Positions 89 to 39,183 of a stretch of 64,000 nucleotides of DNA are shown here, piece after piece. Source of the stretch: Dehalococcoidia bacterium (GTDB lineage Bacteria; Chloroflexota; Dehalococcoidia; Bin125); contig JAJDTU010000013.1 of NCBI GenBank assembly GCA_022826965.1, forward strand, positions 124,001 to 188,000. The letters are read 5' to 3'. How positions within the stretch are numbered: position 1 is the first letter of the stretch; the number at the start of each line of letters is the position of its first letter. Below the pieces are notes generated by a model that did not search any database, was not told the DNA's origin, and saw nothing but the letters and a program-made list of their open reading frames with translations. The position numbers and the translations under genes are program-made.

Positions 89-2017
89 CTACGTCTTCAG
101 CTTCTGCGCGTAGATCGCGTTCAGACCGGTCGATGTGTCGTAGTACTCGTTGTAGAGAATCTCCGGCGTGACCGCGTAGAGGTGCGGCAGACCGAACAGC
201 GGCACCTGGAACGCGTTCTCGTACGAAATCACCGCAGCCTGGTAGTAGAGATCGTTCGCGCGCTGCTGATCGAACTCGGCGTTCGCTTCCTCGATCAAGG
301 CCTGGAACTCCGAGAACTCCGGCAGGAAGTCGTCCGTCTCCTGAGCGTGCGAATACGGAGCGCCGATAGTCGTGACCAGCCGGTAGGCGAAGGCCGGACC
401 GAGCGGCGCGCCGCTAGAGACACCGGCCTGGTTGAAGACGAACGGGTGCGGCAGCTCGTTGTTGCGGATCAGCGCCAGCGCGTTGCCGAAGTCGGCGTAG
501 TCGATCTCGACCTGGAAGCCGACATCGTTGAGCATCTGCTGCACCGCCGGCATCCAGATCCGGTCGGCGGTCCACAGACCGGTTGGCAACGTGATCGTGA
601 AGGCGAAGCCGATCTGTCCCGCCTCCTCGAGCAGCGCCCGCGCCTTGTCCGGGTCGTAGTTGTACTGTCCCGGCAGATTGCCGATCGGCGGGTCGTAGCC
701 GGCCGGGAACGGCGAATAGGCCCGTTCTTCGGTACCGGTCAGCAGGTTCTCGATGATCGCGTCGGCGTCGATCGCGTAGTTCGCGGCCTGCCGCACGCGC
801 ACGTCGCGCCACGGATTCTCTTCGCCCGTGATCGGATCGAGCGACTGGTTGACCGGGAGTTCCAGCGCCATCACGCGCACGTCGGGCAGCGCGATCACCT
901 TGAAGTCGTCGCGATCCTCGAACTGCTTGGCCACGTCCGGGCTGATCCGGTAGGCGATGTCGACCTCGCCGGCCTCCAGCGCCGCCGCACGCGCTTGTTC
1001 CTCGGGGAAGTAGCGGCCCGTGATGTACTTGGCCCAACCGGCCTTGTACTGGAACGGCGCGTCGTGACCGAAGGCGAAGTTCTCGAAGCGCTGGCTGCGA
1101 ATCTCCTGGTCCGGGATCCAAGACATGAACTGGTATGCCCCGCAACCGATCGGGTTGTTGGCGAAATGGTCGTCACCGTTGTCGATGATGTACTGCTTGG
1201 GCAGCAGACCGAAGTTGATCCCGCCCGACTGTTCGGGCGCGTCCACGAACGGCGTGTCCATGGCGATGTCGACGGTGTATTCGTCGACCACCGTGATATC
1301 GCCCATCCAGCCGGCGCGGGCGCGCAGTTGCGACTCGAAGTCCGGGTTGTACTCAGCCCGGCCGAGGATCCGCTCGTAGTAGAACTGCACCGACTCCGCG
1401 TTCAGCGGTTCGCCGTTATGGAAGGTGACGCCTTCCTTGATCTTCCAGCGGAAGCTGGACAGGTCCTCGGAAAACTCCCAGTCGCCGAACCCGCCCTCAG
1501 CCTGGATCACGCGACCCGAGTTGTACGCCGCCAGCGCCGCGAAATGCAGGTTGTTGCTCGCGCCCTGACCGCCGCCGCCGCCGGCAGTGGTAATGTCCAG
1601 CGTCGGCGGGAATGACCCGTAGCCGACGATGATCTCCGCGTCGAGGTCGACCTCGCTGACTTCGGCCTCCTCCTGCGCCGTCGAGCGGTCCAGTTCCTCT
1701 TCTTGCTGAGCCTGTTCCTGCTGCTCGACCTGTTGCGCCTGCTGTTCGGCCTGTTGCTCCTGCTGCTCCTGCATGGCCTGTTGCTGAGCCTGCTGTTGCA
1801 TGGCCTGCTGCTGCTCTTGCTGCTGCATGGCCTGCTGCTGCTCTTGCTCCTGCGGCTGGGCCTGGGCAACGGTCTGTTGCGGTTGATCGTCATCGTCGTC
1901 GCCGCCGCAGCCGACCAGCGCCAGACCGGCCGCGCCCACGCCCGCTCGCGCCGAGGCTCGCAGCAACGACCGCCTGCTCAGCTTCGCACGCCGTAGTTGG
2001 GTCCAATGTCGCGTCAT
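89..2017 (-). CDS. ABC transporter substrate-binding lipoprotein (solute-binding family 5, peptide/nickel type)
   Basis: The 642-residue product looks like an extracytoplasmic solute-binding protein of the oligopeptide/nickel family, which captures peptides or similar solutes for an ABC permease. The N-terminus has a Tat-like motif (SRRSLLRA, about residues 14-21) and a lipobox ending LVGC with Cys37 as the likely lipidated residue. Residues about 47-115 are a very Gln/Glu-rich low-complexity tether, followed by the family 5 fold (features such as the GVTFHNGEPLNAESV segment). The start is ATG with a strong GAAAGGGGAA Shine-Dalgarno sequence, and a TATCTT box lies about 45 bases upstream. No permease or ATPase genes are adjacent on this side; they could lie beyond the left edge. 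The family call is firm, the substrate unknown. Confidence 0.88.
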   Translation of the reverse strand: MTRHWTQLRRAKLSRRSLLRASARAGVGAAGLALVGCGGDDDDDQPQQTVAQAQPQEQEQQQAMQQQEQQQAMQQQAQQQAMQEQQEQQAEQQAQQVEQQEQAQQEEELDRSTAQEEAEVSEVDLDAEIIVGYGSFPPTLDITTAGGGGGQGASNNLHFAALAAYNSGRVIQAEGGFGDWEFSEDLSSFRWKIKEGVTFHNGEPLNAESVQFYYERILGRAEYNPDFESQLRARAGWMGDITVVDEYTVDIAMDTPFVDAPEQSGGINFGLLPKQYIIDNGDDHFANNPIGCGAYQFMSWIPDQEIRSQRFENFAFGHDAPFQYKAGWAKYITGRYFPEEQARAAALEAGEVDIAYRISPDVAKQFEDRDDFKVIALPDVRVMALELPVNQSLDPITGEENPWRDVRVRQAANYAIDADAIIENLLTGTEERAYSPFPAGYDPPIGNLPGQYNYDPDKARALLEEAGQIGFAFTITLPTGLWTADRIWMPAVQQMLNDVGFQVEIDYADFGNALALIRNNELPHPFVFNQAGVSSGAPLGPAFAYRLVTTIGAPYSHAQETDDFLPEFSEFQALIEEANAEFDQQRANDLYYQAAVISYENAFQVPLFGLPHLYAVTPEILYNEYYDTSTGLNAIYAQKLKT

Positions 2018-32770: not shown

Positions 32771-32929
32771 GATCTTGTTGCTCTCCTGAACTGCCAGATT
32801 GCCACTGTAAAGGGCGAACGGCCAAAGGATCAGGATATCGGGCGGCGTGGAACAGGGACAAAACACTGGACCATCACTGCTGAACCTCGTGCATCTGGCG
32901 CTGTGGGCTGGGAATTCTCGCTGCGGGAT

Positions 32930-33030
32930 GTCAGATTTGGTCAGATCCCGTCAGATGTTGGGGGAGTGAGGTCAGATTTCGGTGAGCCGTGTCGGCTGAC
33001 GTCGGGTCATGTCCAGCGATGTCGGATGGG
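32930..33030. repeat. Intergenic array of ~10 decamers, consensus GTCRGATNNN
   Basis: Heptamers begin at 32930, 32940, 32950, 32971, 32991, 33001, 33011 and 33021: GTCAGAT four times, then GTCGGCT, GTCGGGT, GTCCAGC and GTCGGAT. The spacing is exactly 10 bases, with one 21-base step. Units at 32981 and 33031 are more decayed. The array fills much of the 370-base gap between recG and argS and would lie 160-260 bases upstream of the argS start. Apart from this, the gap shows nothing gene-like. Confidence 0.72.
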
Positions 33031-33140
33031 TTGGAGGGGTTCATGAGGCGCTCCTGGATCGCTGGCGTGGTCGGGCATCGCCGATTGTATGCGCACACAC
33101 GTTCTTCCGCGGGGCCGCGACGTGTCGCAGGCAACAGGCG

Positions 33141-35696
33141 CTAGTGGACCGCGGTCGCGCCCGCCACATTCAGGTTCTGCGACTGAAGCCTGAGTAGCCG
33201 ATGCTCCGGCGCACGCAGGTGCGGATCGTCGTCCAGGATCCGGTTGGCCCAGTTCCTTGCCAGATCGAGCGTGCGGTGATCCGTCAGCTTCGCTACTCGA
33301 AGCTCGGGCAAGCCGGACTGTCGCGTACCGAAGTACTCGCCCGGTCCGCGCATCTCGAGATCGGCCTCCGCCAGTTCGAATCCGTTCGACGTCTGCACCA
33401 TCAGGTCGAGCCGCCGCTGGCTCTGCTCGATGTCCGTGTCGGAGATCAGGTAGCAGACCGACTCCATGTCGCTGCGACCCACCCGTCCGCGCAGTTGGTG
33501 TAGTTGCGCCAGGCCAAATCGCTCCGCTCCTTCGATCGCCATCACTGTCGCCCGCGGCAGATCGACGCCGACCTCGACGACGATGGTCGAGACCAGTACG
33601 TCGGCCTCGCCCTTGACGAGGTCGCTCATCACGGCCTGCTTGTCTTCCGACGACATCCGTCCGTGCAGCAGCCGGATCCTCGGAGCCAGCTCGCGCAGCG
33701 GCCCGGACTTCAGGTACTCGTACTGCTCCGTCGCCGCCTCTGACTCCAACTTGTCAGACTCCGCCACGAGCGGACAGATGACGAACGTCTGCCGACCCTT
33801 CCTCGCCTCTTCGCGGATCCGGGCGTAGACGATCTCTTCGCGCTGCGATGGCTCGACAATCTGCGTGCGCACCCGTTGACGCCCCGGCGGCAGTTCGTCG
33901 ATCACCGACGAGTCGAGTTCGCCGTAGACGGTCAGAGCCAGGGTTCGCGGGATCGGCGTGGCCGACATGACCAGCAGATGCGGGCTGCGACCCTTGCTGC
34001 GCAGCGCGTCGCGTTGCAGCACGCCGAAGCGGTGCTGTTCGTCGACGACCGCGAGGCCGATGTCCTTGAAGTTGGCGCTCTCCTGGATCAGGGCATGCGT
34101 CCCGACCACGAGGTCGAGCATGCCCGATTCCATTTCCTGGTGGATCTGACGCTTGCGGGCAGCGCGCATGCTGCCGGTCAGCAACGCCATGCGCACGGGT
34201 CGTCCGAGCGCCGGCGCCAGGCTGAAGTTGTGCCAGATCTGATCGTCGCCCGACAGTTCCTTGCCCGCGAACAGCCGCTGGAACGTCTCATAGTGCTGCG
34301 ACGCGAGCACCTCGGTCGGCGCCATGAGCACGGTTTGATGCCCGGCGCGAACGGCGGCGAGCATCGCCGCCGCCGCGACCACCGTCTTGCCCGATCCCAC
34401 GTCGCCCTGCAGCAGCCGGGCCATCGGCTCGCGGCGGAACATGTCGTTGCGGATCTCCGTCAGGACGCGTTGCTGCGCGCCGGTGAGCTGGAACGGCAGC
34501 GCGCCGATGAACTTGTCGAGGAAGTCTCCCGGCATCGGGATCGGCGGCGCATCCGCACGCTGTCGCGCCTCCCGTTTGCGACCGAGTACCGCGAGCTGGA
34601 TCGAAAGCAGTTCCTGGAACGCGATCCGCTCCTTCGCCTCGTCGACGTCTTCCAACCGCTCTGGGAAGTGAATGATGGAAAGGGCCTCTGCCTCTGAGGG
34701 GAATCGCTCCTCGGCGACGACGCGAGGCGGCAGCGACTCGGCCAGCAGCGGCAGATAGTCGCGCACCGCAGCATGTGCGAGACGGCGAATCGTGCGGTTG
34801 GGCAGACCCTTGGTCCTCGGGTAGACCGGCGACAGTCTGCCGACGTGGACCGTGTCGTCGTCGGGATCGTCGAGCCGTTCCCATTCCGGTGAGACCATTT
34901 GCAGCTGGCGCCCGCGAATCTCGATTTTGCCCGACAGTCCGACGCGCATCCCGGGCTTGAGCGATCGCGCCAGGTAGGGCTGTTGCCACCACCAGATGCG
35001 CAGGCTGCCCGAGCCGTCGCGTACCACCGCTTCCGTTGCCGTCCGCCCGCCTCGCAGATACTTGACGCCGATGCTGGCGATCTCGCCGACGATGGTCAGG
35101 TCGATCCCCTCAAGCGCATCGGAGATCGTACGCACGTTGCGCCAGTCCTCGTATCGGCGCGGCAGGTGCCAGAGCAGGTCGTAGACCGTGTTCAGCCCGA
35201 TCGTGGACATGGCCTTGCGTGAGATCGGCGGGATGCGACCGAGAACCGCGACATCGCGGGCAAGGGGATTTTCGTCGTCGAGCGCGGCGGCGGGACGTCT
35301 CCGGCTGGATCTGGTTCGTGTTGGTGTCCTGTTCTGTCCGGATGTGTCCAGACTTGGACTGGATCGATCCGAATTCTTCCCCAACAGATCCGGCCGATTC
35401 TCTGCTGTTCCCGACCTCTCCGGGCGGCGTGCACTTCTCGGGGCAGCTCCGGGGCTCAGGGCGGCTCGCACGTCGTCGGTCCAGCGCTTGCGCTCGTCAA
35501 TGCTGAGCGCGGCGTAGCCCTCCTGGGGCAAGGCGGCGACGATGCGCTTGAAGAACTGCGCCTGCTCGCCCTCCTTGAGGACGTTGCGGAGGAACCCGTC
35601 GAGGCCGCCGACCACAGCCCGATCCTGGAATCCGAGCTTGGCCTCACGCTCCAGCATCAGCTGGAGGGTCTGCGTAGGCCGTCGCCGGGTCGTCAT
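33141..35696 (-). CDS. recG: ATP-dependent DNA helicase RecG
   Basis: The 851-residue protein remodels stalled forks and branched DNA. The OB-fold wedge domain (GEIASIGVKYLRGGRTATEAVVRDG) precedes the helicase core with Walker A GDVGSGKTVVAAAAM, the DEQHRFG box and the late VVEVGVDLPRATVMAIEGAERFGLAQLHQLRGRVGR motif. It is longer than usual because of an N-terminal helical part (about 1-90) and a Ser/Arg/Pro-rich low-complexity linker (about 90-165) with a weak 10-bp DNA periodicity around 35325-35365. The ATG at 35696 shares a base with the degV stop codon (TGATG), so the 100 bases of further open frame are ignored. Confidence 0.94.
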   Translation of the reverse strand: MTTRRRPTQTLQLMLEREAKLGFQDRAVVGGLDGFLRNVLKEGEQAQFFKRIVAALPQEGYAALSIDERKRWTDDVRAALSPGAAPRSARRPERSGTAENRPDLLGKNSDRSSPSLDTSGQNRTPTRTRSSRRRPAAALDDENPLARDVAVLGRIPPISRKAMSTIGLNTVYDLLWHLPRRYEDWRNVRTISDALEGIDLTIVGEIASIGVKYLRGGRTATEAVVRDGSGSLRIWWWQQPYLARSLKPGMRVGLSGKIEIRGRQLQMVSPEWERLDDPDDDTVHVGRLSPVYPRTKGLPNRTIRRLAHAAVRDYLPLLAESLPPRVVAEERFPSEAEALSIIHFPERLEDVDEAKERIAFQELLSIQLAVLGRKREARQRADAPPIPMPGDFLDKFIGALPFQLTGAQQRVLTEIRNDMFRREPMARLLQGDVGSGKTVVAAAAMLAAVRAGHQTVLMAPTEVLASQHYETFQRLFAGKELSGDDQIWHNFSLAPALGRPVRMALLTGSMRAARKRQIHQEMESGMLDLVVGTHALIQESANFKDIGLAVVDEQHRFGVLQRDALRSKGRSPHLLVMSATPIPRTLALTVYGELDSSVIDELPPGRQRVRTQIVEPSQREEIVYARIREEARKGRQTFVICPLVAESDKLESEAATEQYEYLKSGPLRELAPRIRLLHGRMSSEDKQAVMSDLVKGEADVLVSTIVVEVGVDLPRATVMAIEGAERFGLAQLHQLRGRVGRSDMESVCYLISDTDIEQSQRRLDLMVQTSNGFELAEADLEMRGPGEYFGTRQSGLPELRVAKLTDHRTLDLARNWANRILDDDPHLRAPEHRLLRLQSQNLNVAGATAVH

Positions 35697-38724: not shown

Positions 38725-39183
38725 ATGCGAATCTACGTTGGAAACCTGCCTTTCCGAACCAACCAGGACGAACTGCGCGACCTGTTCGCCGAACACGGCG
38801 AAGTCCAGGATTGCGTCATCCCGGTCGACCGAGACAGCGGTCGATCCCGAGGATTCGGCTTCGTCGACATGGCCGACGAGGAAGCGCGCAACGCGATCAC
38901 CGCGCTCGACGGCTACGACATGGACGGACGCCAACTGCGCGTCAACGAAGCGCGACCGCGCGGTTCCGGCGGCGGCGGCGGTGGCGGGTACCGAGGCGGT
39001 GGCGGTGGTGGCGGCGGCTACCGTGACGACCGCGGCGGCGGCTACCGCGATGGCGGTGGCGGCGGCTACCGTGAGAGCCGGGGAGGCGGCGGTGGCGGTG
39101 GTGGCGGCGGCTACCGCGAGCCCCGTTACGACGACCGCGGCTCGCGCGACAGCTACTCGTCCGACCGCGGCCGGCGCTGGTAG
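38725..39183 (+). CDS. RRM-type RNA-binding protein with Gly-rich tail
   Basis: The 152-residue protein has one RNA-recognition motif with RNP2 IYVGNL at the start and RNP1 RGFGFVDM near residue 47, both with the aromatic residues that stack on RNA. The second half is a Gly/Arg/Tyr repeat region (GGGGYR and GGGYRE units), as in cyanobacterial Rbp proteins and hnRNP-like proteins. Such tails bind RNA loosely and can promote condensation. A GAGGA site lies very close to the ATG. Hairpins in the leader could be its own binding sites. Cold-shock or general RNA-chaperone roles are plausible. Confidence 0.9.
   Translation: MRIYVGNLPFRTNQDELRDLFAEHGEVQDCVIPVDRDSGRSRGFGFVDMADEEARNAITALDGYDMDGRQLRVNEARPRGSGGGGGGGYRGGGGGGGGYRDDRGGGYRDGGGGGYRESRGGGGGGGGGGYREPRYDDRGSRDSYSSDRGRRW

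Follow-up and report, generated by a model that had tools for sequence, protein, structure and literature searches.

A genus-restricted family of intergenic modules with helically phased 10-bp repeat arrays in Dehalococcoidia

Introduction

Direct-repeat arrays phased at about 10 bp are known from single phage or promoter sites. In phage 186, the 6-bp operators of the Apl protein are arranged as direct repeats at 10-11 bp in arrays of 5-7 sites; Apl binds them cooperatively, needs three adjacent sites, and bends the DNA (PMC7498355). BldC, likewise, binds head-to-tail to 9-bp direct repeats of the form AATTXXXX(C), which occur in varying number, one turn apart, in promoter regions (PMC5859096). 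A further class of abundant intergenic short direct repeats with no assigned function is that of the Beggiatoaceae, in which a single fixed heptamer, TAACTGA, recurs with a contiguous 7-bp period and unit-step indels just upstream of the real start codons of ordinary genes (PMC4679880).

Here we analyze a 64,000-nucleotide stretch of a Dehalococcoidia genome (hereinafter the window), in which a row of heptamers between recG and argS belongs to a chromosomal family with dozens of copies. Its arrays resemble the operators of the Apl/Xis/Cox recombination directionality factors in being degenerate, short-core direct repeats with a 10-11 bp spacing near predicted promoters; however, the Apl sites lie in the phage att and pR-pL regions, whereas here dozens of chromosomal copies each carry a promoter-like sequence of their own. 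With the BldC operators they share a varying number of head-to-tail repeats one turn apart, though their repeat is 10 bp long, its core is of the CTGAC type, and the units number up to about 16. They are set apart from the TAACTGA repeats by their 10-bp period, drifting core, and putative promoter.

Results

A decamer array in the recG-argS gap is one copy of a larger element

The sequence-only reading of the window had claimed a row of eight GTCRGAT-type heptamers in the recG-argS gap, and inspection of the sites bears out the row. Five are exact (32930, 32940, 32950, 32971, and 33021), of which the first four are the identical GTCAGAT, and those at 32991 and 33001 match at six of seven positions; the eighth, at 33011 (GTCCAGC), matches at only three of seven and is hence a weak site. 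The heptamers follow one another in steps of 10, 10, 21, 20, 10, and 20, the last being 10+10 by way of 33011. The five exact heptamers of the gap form four pairs at 10-bp multiples, against a maximum of three heptamers and one such pair in 20,000 Markov shuffles of the gap. Genome-wide, GTCRGAT-N3-GTCRGAT occurs seven times, at this locus and three more places (four loci in all), versus zero times for the reversed control. The array is genuine, and chance falls far short of explaining it. Tandem Repeats Finder did not report it because its units are degenerate; the repeats which that program reported at window positions 1717-1853 and 38995-39116 are, as far as their sequence tells, Q/L-rich and G/Y-rich coding stretches.

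The row is, moreover, one copy of a larger repeated element that the sequence-only reading had missed. A model built from sequence alone on 27 copies (R1; its E-values are rough) matches about 275 bp on the minus strand here (Table 1), the window copy having belonged to the training set. Eight further matches to R1 lie in the window's genome, other genomes contribute many more, and the modules of the family are about 300 bases long. On the minus strand, the 27 aligned copies run in the order GACAC.., a box (cGAACGTgcGTgCG.ATACAATcg), about 30 nt, the start signal CAGGAGCGC.TC-ATG, block 1, block 2 (ATCTGACCTC, a 21-bp step, ATCTGACCGG, ATCTGACCAA, and ATCTGACATC), and the 3′ box GAATTCCCAGCCCACAGCGCC. 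As read from this alignment, each module comprises a promoter-like box, a predicted Shine-Dalgarno sequence with ATG, two blocks of phased 10-bp units, and a 3′ box. The promoter-like box has 37 genome-wide matches at two or fewer mismatches versus six in the control. The array of the window copy has about 12 units at 10-bp spacing, with two steps of 20 and 21, and several of the length differences among copies amount to whole 10-bp units.

Table 1. Features of the recG-argS copy and its surroundings (window coordinates)
Feature	Position	Strand	Remarks
Whole element	32879..33152	-	model R1 match, 202.6 bits, model positions 9-283 of 285
Promoter-like box GAACGTGTGTGCGCATACAAT	33084..33104	-	operator-like GAACN4GTNC, then a putative -10 TACAAT; conserved in class-1 copies
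Predicted Shine-Dalgarno CAGGAGC + ATG	33042..33056	-	conserved in aligned copies
ORF	33044-32931	-	37 codons; no purifying selection on amino-acid sequence
Array block 1	32981..33041	-	CCGACATSAC-type units, 10-bp steps, degenerate
Array block 2	32926..32980	-	ATCTGACCTC / 21 bp / ATCTGACGGG ATCTGACCAA ATCTGACATC; the GTCAGAT row of the sequence-only reading
Conserved 3′ box GAATTCCCAGCCCACAGCGCC	32897..32917	-	from alignment of copies
Putative argS promoter core GATATCCTGATCCTTTGGCC..TACAGT	32804..32839	-	outside the element; role inferred from position and sequence

The helical register is kept while the core drifts

Autocorrelation at lag 10 is pronounced in both main types of copies (z=20.7 for CTGAC-type and 24.3 for CTGGAC-type copies), whereas their flanks display a 3-nt codon periodicity rather than a lag-10 signal. 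Steps of 10, 20, or 30 bp make up 67% and 80% of all steps in the two core types, versus 3-5% in shuffles, and most of the remainder are 11, 21, or 31 bp. The step lengths are close to the helical repeat, and the array holds at least three direct repeats one helical turn apart, as do operators of the Apl/BldC type. Hence, of the earlier suggestion of a row of sites on one helix face upstream of argS, the register stands; the tie to argS does not (see below).

The core itself varies across copies between CTGAC, CTGGAC, and CGGAC. The unit is ATCTGGACAA in five genomes (G003, G010, G012, G013, and G014), where block 1 shifts alike to CCGGAC, and some copies in G008 have AATCGGACAA units. Even orthologous copies differ, with CTGGAC in G003 versus CGGAC in G008, and preserve the register.

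The sequence-only reading had also raised a minisatellite generated by slippage. Units of 10 bp are indeed gained and lost between copies, and slippage thus adds some variation; furthermore, unrelated phyla (Streptomyces, cyanobacteria, Bacteroides, and others; L037-L077) possess perfect ATCTGAC-N3 decamer runs, far above the 0.1 expected, which look like independent perfect minisatellites. However, a minisatellite would have a free unit number and no other conserved parts. Here the units are degenerate, yet at about 20% coding divergence the register persists, as do the flanking modules; orthologous and paralogous copies alike retain the promoter box along with the start signal and the 3′ box. 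This makes a function-free minisatellite extremely improbable.

An old, genus-restricted intergenic family with no special link to argS

Our searches covered 20 genomes of the family, all draft MAGs, 15 of them in the genus and five from other genera; taken at the order level, the search covered these 20 genomes too. Of the 15 genus genomes, eight gave 9-36 copies with R1, three gave 1-3, and four gave none, as did all five other-genus genomes. Among these 20 genomes, the previously unnamed element family is genus-restricted. The spaced GTCRGAT pattern is also found in the genus members G006, G008, and G009 (41 times in the last), and named contigs with the triple repeat comprise 14 loci from Dehalococcoidia MAGs (jk18x series) and 29 others in unrelated phyla. 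All 60 copies examined are intergenic by a home-made gene caller and lie in every orientation to their neighbors (codirectional 25, convergent 15, divergent 12, and opposite on both sides 8). Arrays are orthologous at no fewer than eight locus pairs; between the window's genome (G000) and G009, the element is 81-91% identical and the flanking genes about 80%, in comparisons that rest on short alignments. Since many copies are orthologous across species, the family is probably old, with losses or occasional moves.

The element sits upstream of argS, but the recG-argS gap in relatives speaks against a role linked to that gene: only two of 14 species, those of G000 and G009, have the element there, and it is missing from G013 (the sister of G000) and from G010 and G004 (the sisters of G009). 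The element does not include the putative argS promoter core, which almost every species in the comparison has, whether or not it has the element. The absence from 12 of 14 species, together with this external promoter, argues that the element is not an argS regulator, and other copies between convergent genes likewise speak against it; we accordingly give almost no credence to a cis-regulator or attenuator of argS. An argS leader or T-box was rejected on the same grounds and because an Rfam search with the element gave no match at E≤1. We also rejected the idea that G000 recently acquired its recG-argS region horizontally from a G009-like donor: the flanks follow the sister G013 (~90%), and so at most the gap itself moved. 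In five other genomes (G003, G014, G004, G006, and G010; L143, L145, L149, L148, and L146), the same gap contains other REP-like palindromic inserts of the GTCATACCCGCGCTTGTCGCGGGTATCTCGC and CCCCGCTTCGCGGGGGG types.

Several of these features recall a MITE- or REP-like intergenic repeat devoid of host function, in which the phased units and 3′ box would be recombinase or transposase sites. The copies are multiple (0-36 per genome), always intergenic, and in all orientations; they come and go between close relatives, as MITE/IS-derived repeats do; they are patchy at recG-argS, in non-sister species, in a gap that harbors REP-like inserts in relatives; and direct repeats of just this kind serve the RDF/Xis proteins of mobile elements (PMC7498355). 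On the other hand, no terminal inverted repeats or clear target-site duplications were recognized by eye in alignments or empty sites, the ends being fuzzy; orthologous places are kept across the genus; and it is unusual for a non-autonomous element to conserve a promoter-like sequence and a start signal. We regard this explanation as serious but on balance somewhat unlikely. If the element is selfish, it would be a new kind of intergenic element without recognizable terminal repeats.

Neither transcript nor peptide readily accounts for the array

The conserved promoter-like box and Shine-Dalgarno/ATG, a C-rich and G-poor sense strand (C 0.35-0.39, G 0.17-0.20), and the lack of a consensus fold (RNAalifold energy of 0 in CTGAC-type copies and of -3 in those of the CTGGAC type) would suit an array acting at the RNA level, whereby an unstructured transcript loads Rho or another RNA-binding protein and the short ORF serves as a translational gate. 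But Rho needs neither a strict 10/11-bp register nor a conserved core, the upstream 120 bp are also C-rich (C 0.42, with a higher G of 0.21-0.26), and for 38% of the copies there is no downstream gene in the same direction that could be attenuated. An RNA-level array is thus rather unlikely.

That the short protein is the product seems very improbable. The conserved start signal is in keeping with it, as is the frame-0 ORF of 45-300 codons in CTGGAC-type copies, which reads KSGQIWT in frame; however, a 10-nt repeat yields the same 10-residue cycle in any frame, so a common peptide is automatic. A pN/pS test found no purifying selection on the frame-0 amino acids, the ratio being near 1 in all frames (0.75 in frame 0; 0.89 and 0.94 in the others), and CTGAC-type copies stop at 27-41 codons, with two exceptions. 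We also considered an all-frame translation stop via the TGA in each CTGAC unit, and rejected it since the CTGGAC and CCGAAC classes have none and a three-frame stop in one class only cannot be the common function.

The promoter-like box links the arrays to a second class and to small proteins

The promoter-like box is common to class-1 arrays and a second class, in which CCGAAC units are followed by CCTGAAA units and then by a hairpin (ACGATCTCCAG..CTGGAGATCGT). Nine genus genomes together contain the class-2 pattern CCTGAAANNNCCTGAAA about 116 times, versus once for the reversed control, and all of them carry class-1 arrays as well. Class-2 loci of the window's genome (L081, L086, L096, L100, and L104; G000:C4, C7, and C14) show CCGAACNNNN and then CCTGAAAAAA decamers, with phased A-tracts.

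LexA (SOS) operators are of the GAACN4GTTC type. The lexA promoter contains CGAACGGAGGTTCCG, with the lexA box GAACGGAGGTTC; recA has only a near match, GCACACACGTTC, and the element box is GAACGTGTGTGC. The GAACN4GTNC of the element resembles these operators, including that of the lexA promoter, but its right half-site is GTNC. The resemblance lends weak support to a module that may respond to DNA damage via a LexA-type promoter, the degenerate right half-site and the recA near match making LexA control weak.

A box of this type is also present at solitary small genes (L082, L085, L097, and L107). The box-linked small-protein family (MPNPFHYRARIDRLW...VARHKLRDLYD...EEDDDPL) has 2-22 matches per genome in 11 genus genomes. 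It is an undescribed, multi-paralog family (L216-L234, L097, and L107) with an SSB-like acidic tip, DDDPL/W, encoded by solitary genes with the box, in several cases directly 3′ of a -10-like sequence, and its variable linkers (LPLPLGEGWGEG, PPASSGGRCLVETEGG, and KVAPAKAGA; alignment A4) look like translated REP-type inserts within genes. An AlphaFold model of one member (pLDDT 62) has five short helices; it had no match in a PDB comparison, and Pfam/NCBIfam searches with the protein gave none either. Separately, an HTH protein gene (L105/L009; G000:C8:8143) lies behind a degenerate box and has TGACC-type repeats in its 3′ half.

The small-protein family is absent from G002, G005, G007, and G011, which have zero or one array, G002 and G011 being the least complete genomes; G004 has two small-protein copies and no class-1 array. 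With these caveats, the co-distribution of arrays and small proteins across the genus is suggestive only. Both have the GAACN4GTNC box, the genus genomes that contain them largely coincide, and the core code differs between species and copies. One could envisage a genus-wide two-part system in which filaments on the arrays are built by these acidic-tip small helical proteins (..EEDDDPL/W) or by some other member of that regulon, with array code and protein co-evolving, but we consider such a system quite doubtful.

Discussion

By analogy with Apl and BldC, we tentatively favor the array as a helically phased DNA site for a cooperative head-to-tail binding protein, with a probability of roughly 0.4. 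Subunits of a small protein would bind cooperatively and head to tail, each helical turn taking up one of them, such that many weak degenerate sites might combine into a single strong stretch that is bent or coated. Formed within the module's own short transcription unit, the resulting filament could shut off or gate that promoter; alternatively, it may be a dispersed nucleoprotein landmark. This DNA-array reading is weakened by the dispensability of the element at any given place (two of 14 species at recG-argS) and by the conserved Shine-Dalgarno/ATG, which a pure DNA site does not need; the core drift between species would in addition call for a drifting or tolerant protein.

Across the whole genus, the register is held while the site sequence drifts. 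If a protein does read these arrays, their copies would constitute a natural record of changes in a cooperative DNA-binding code.
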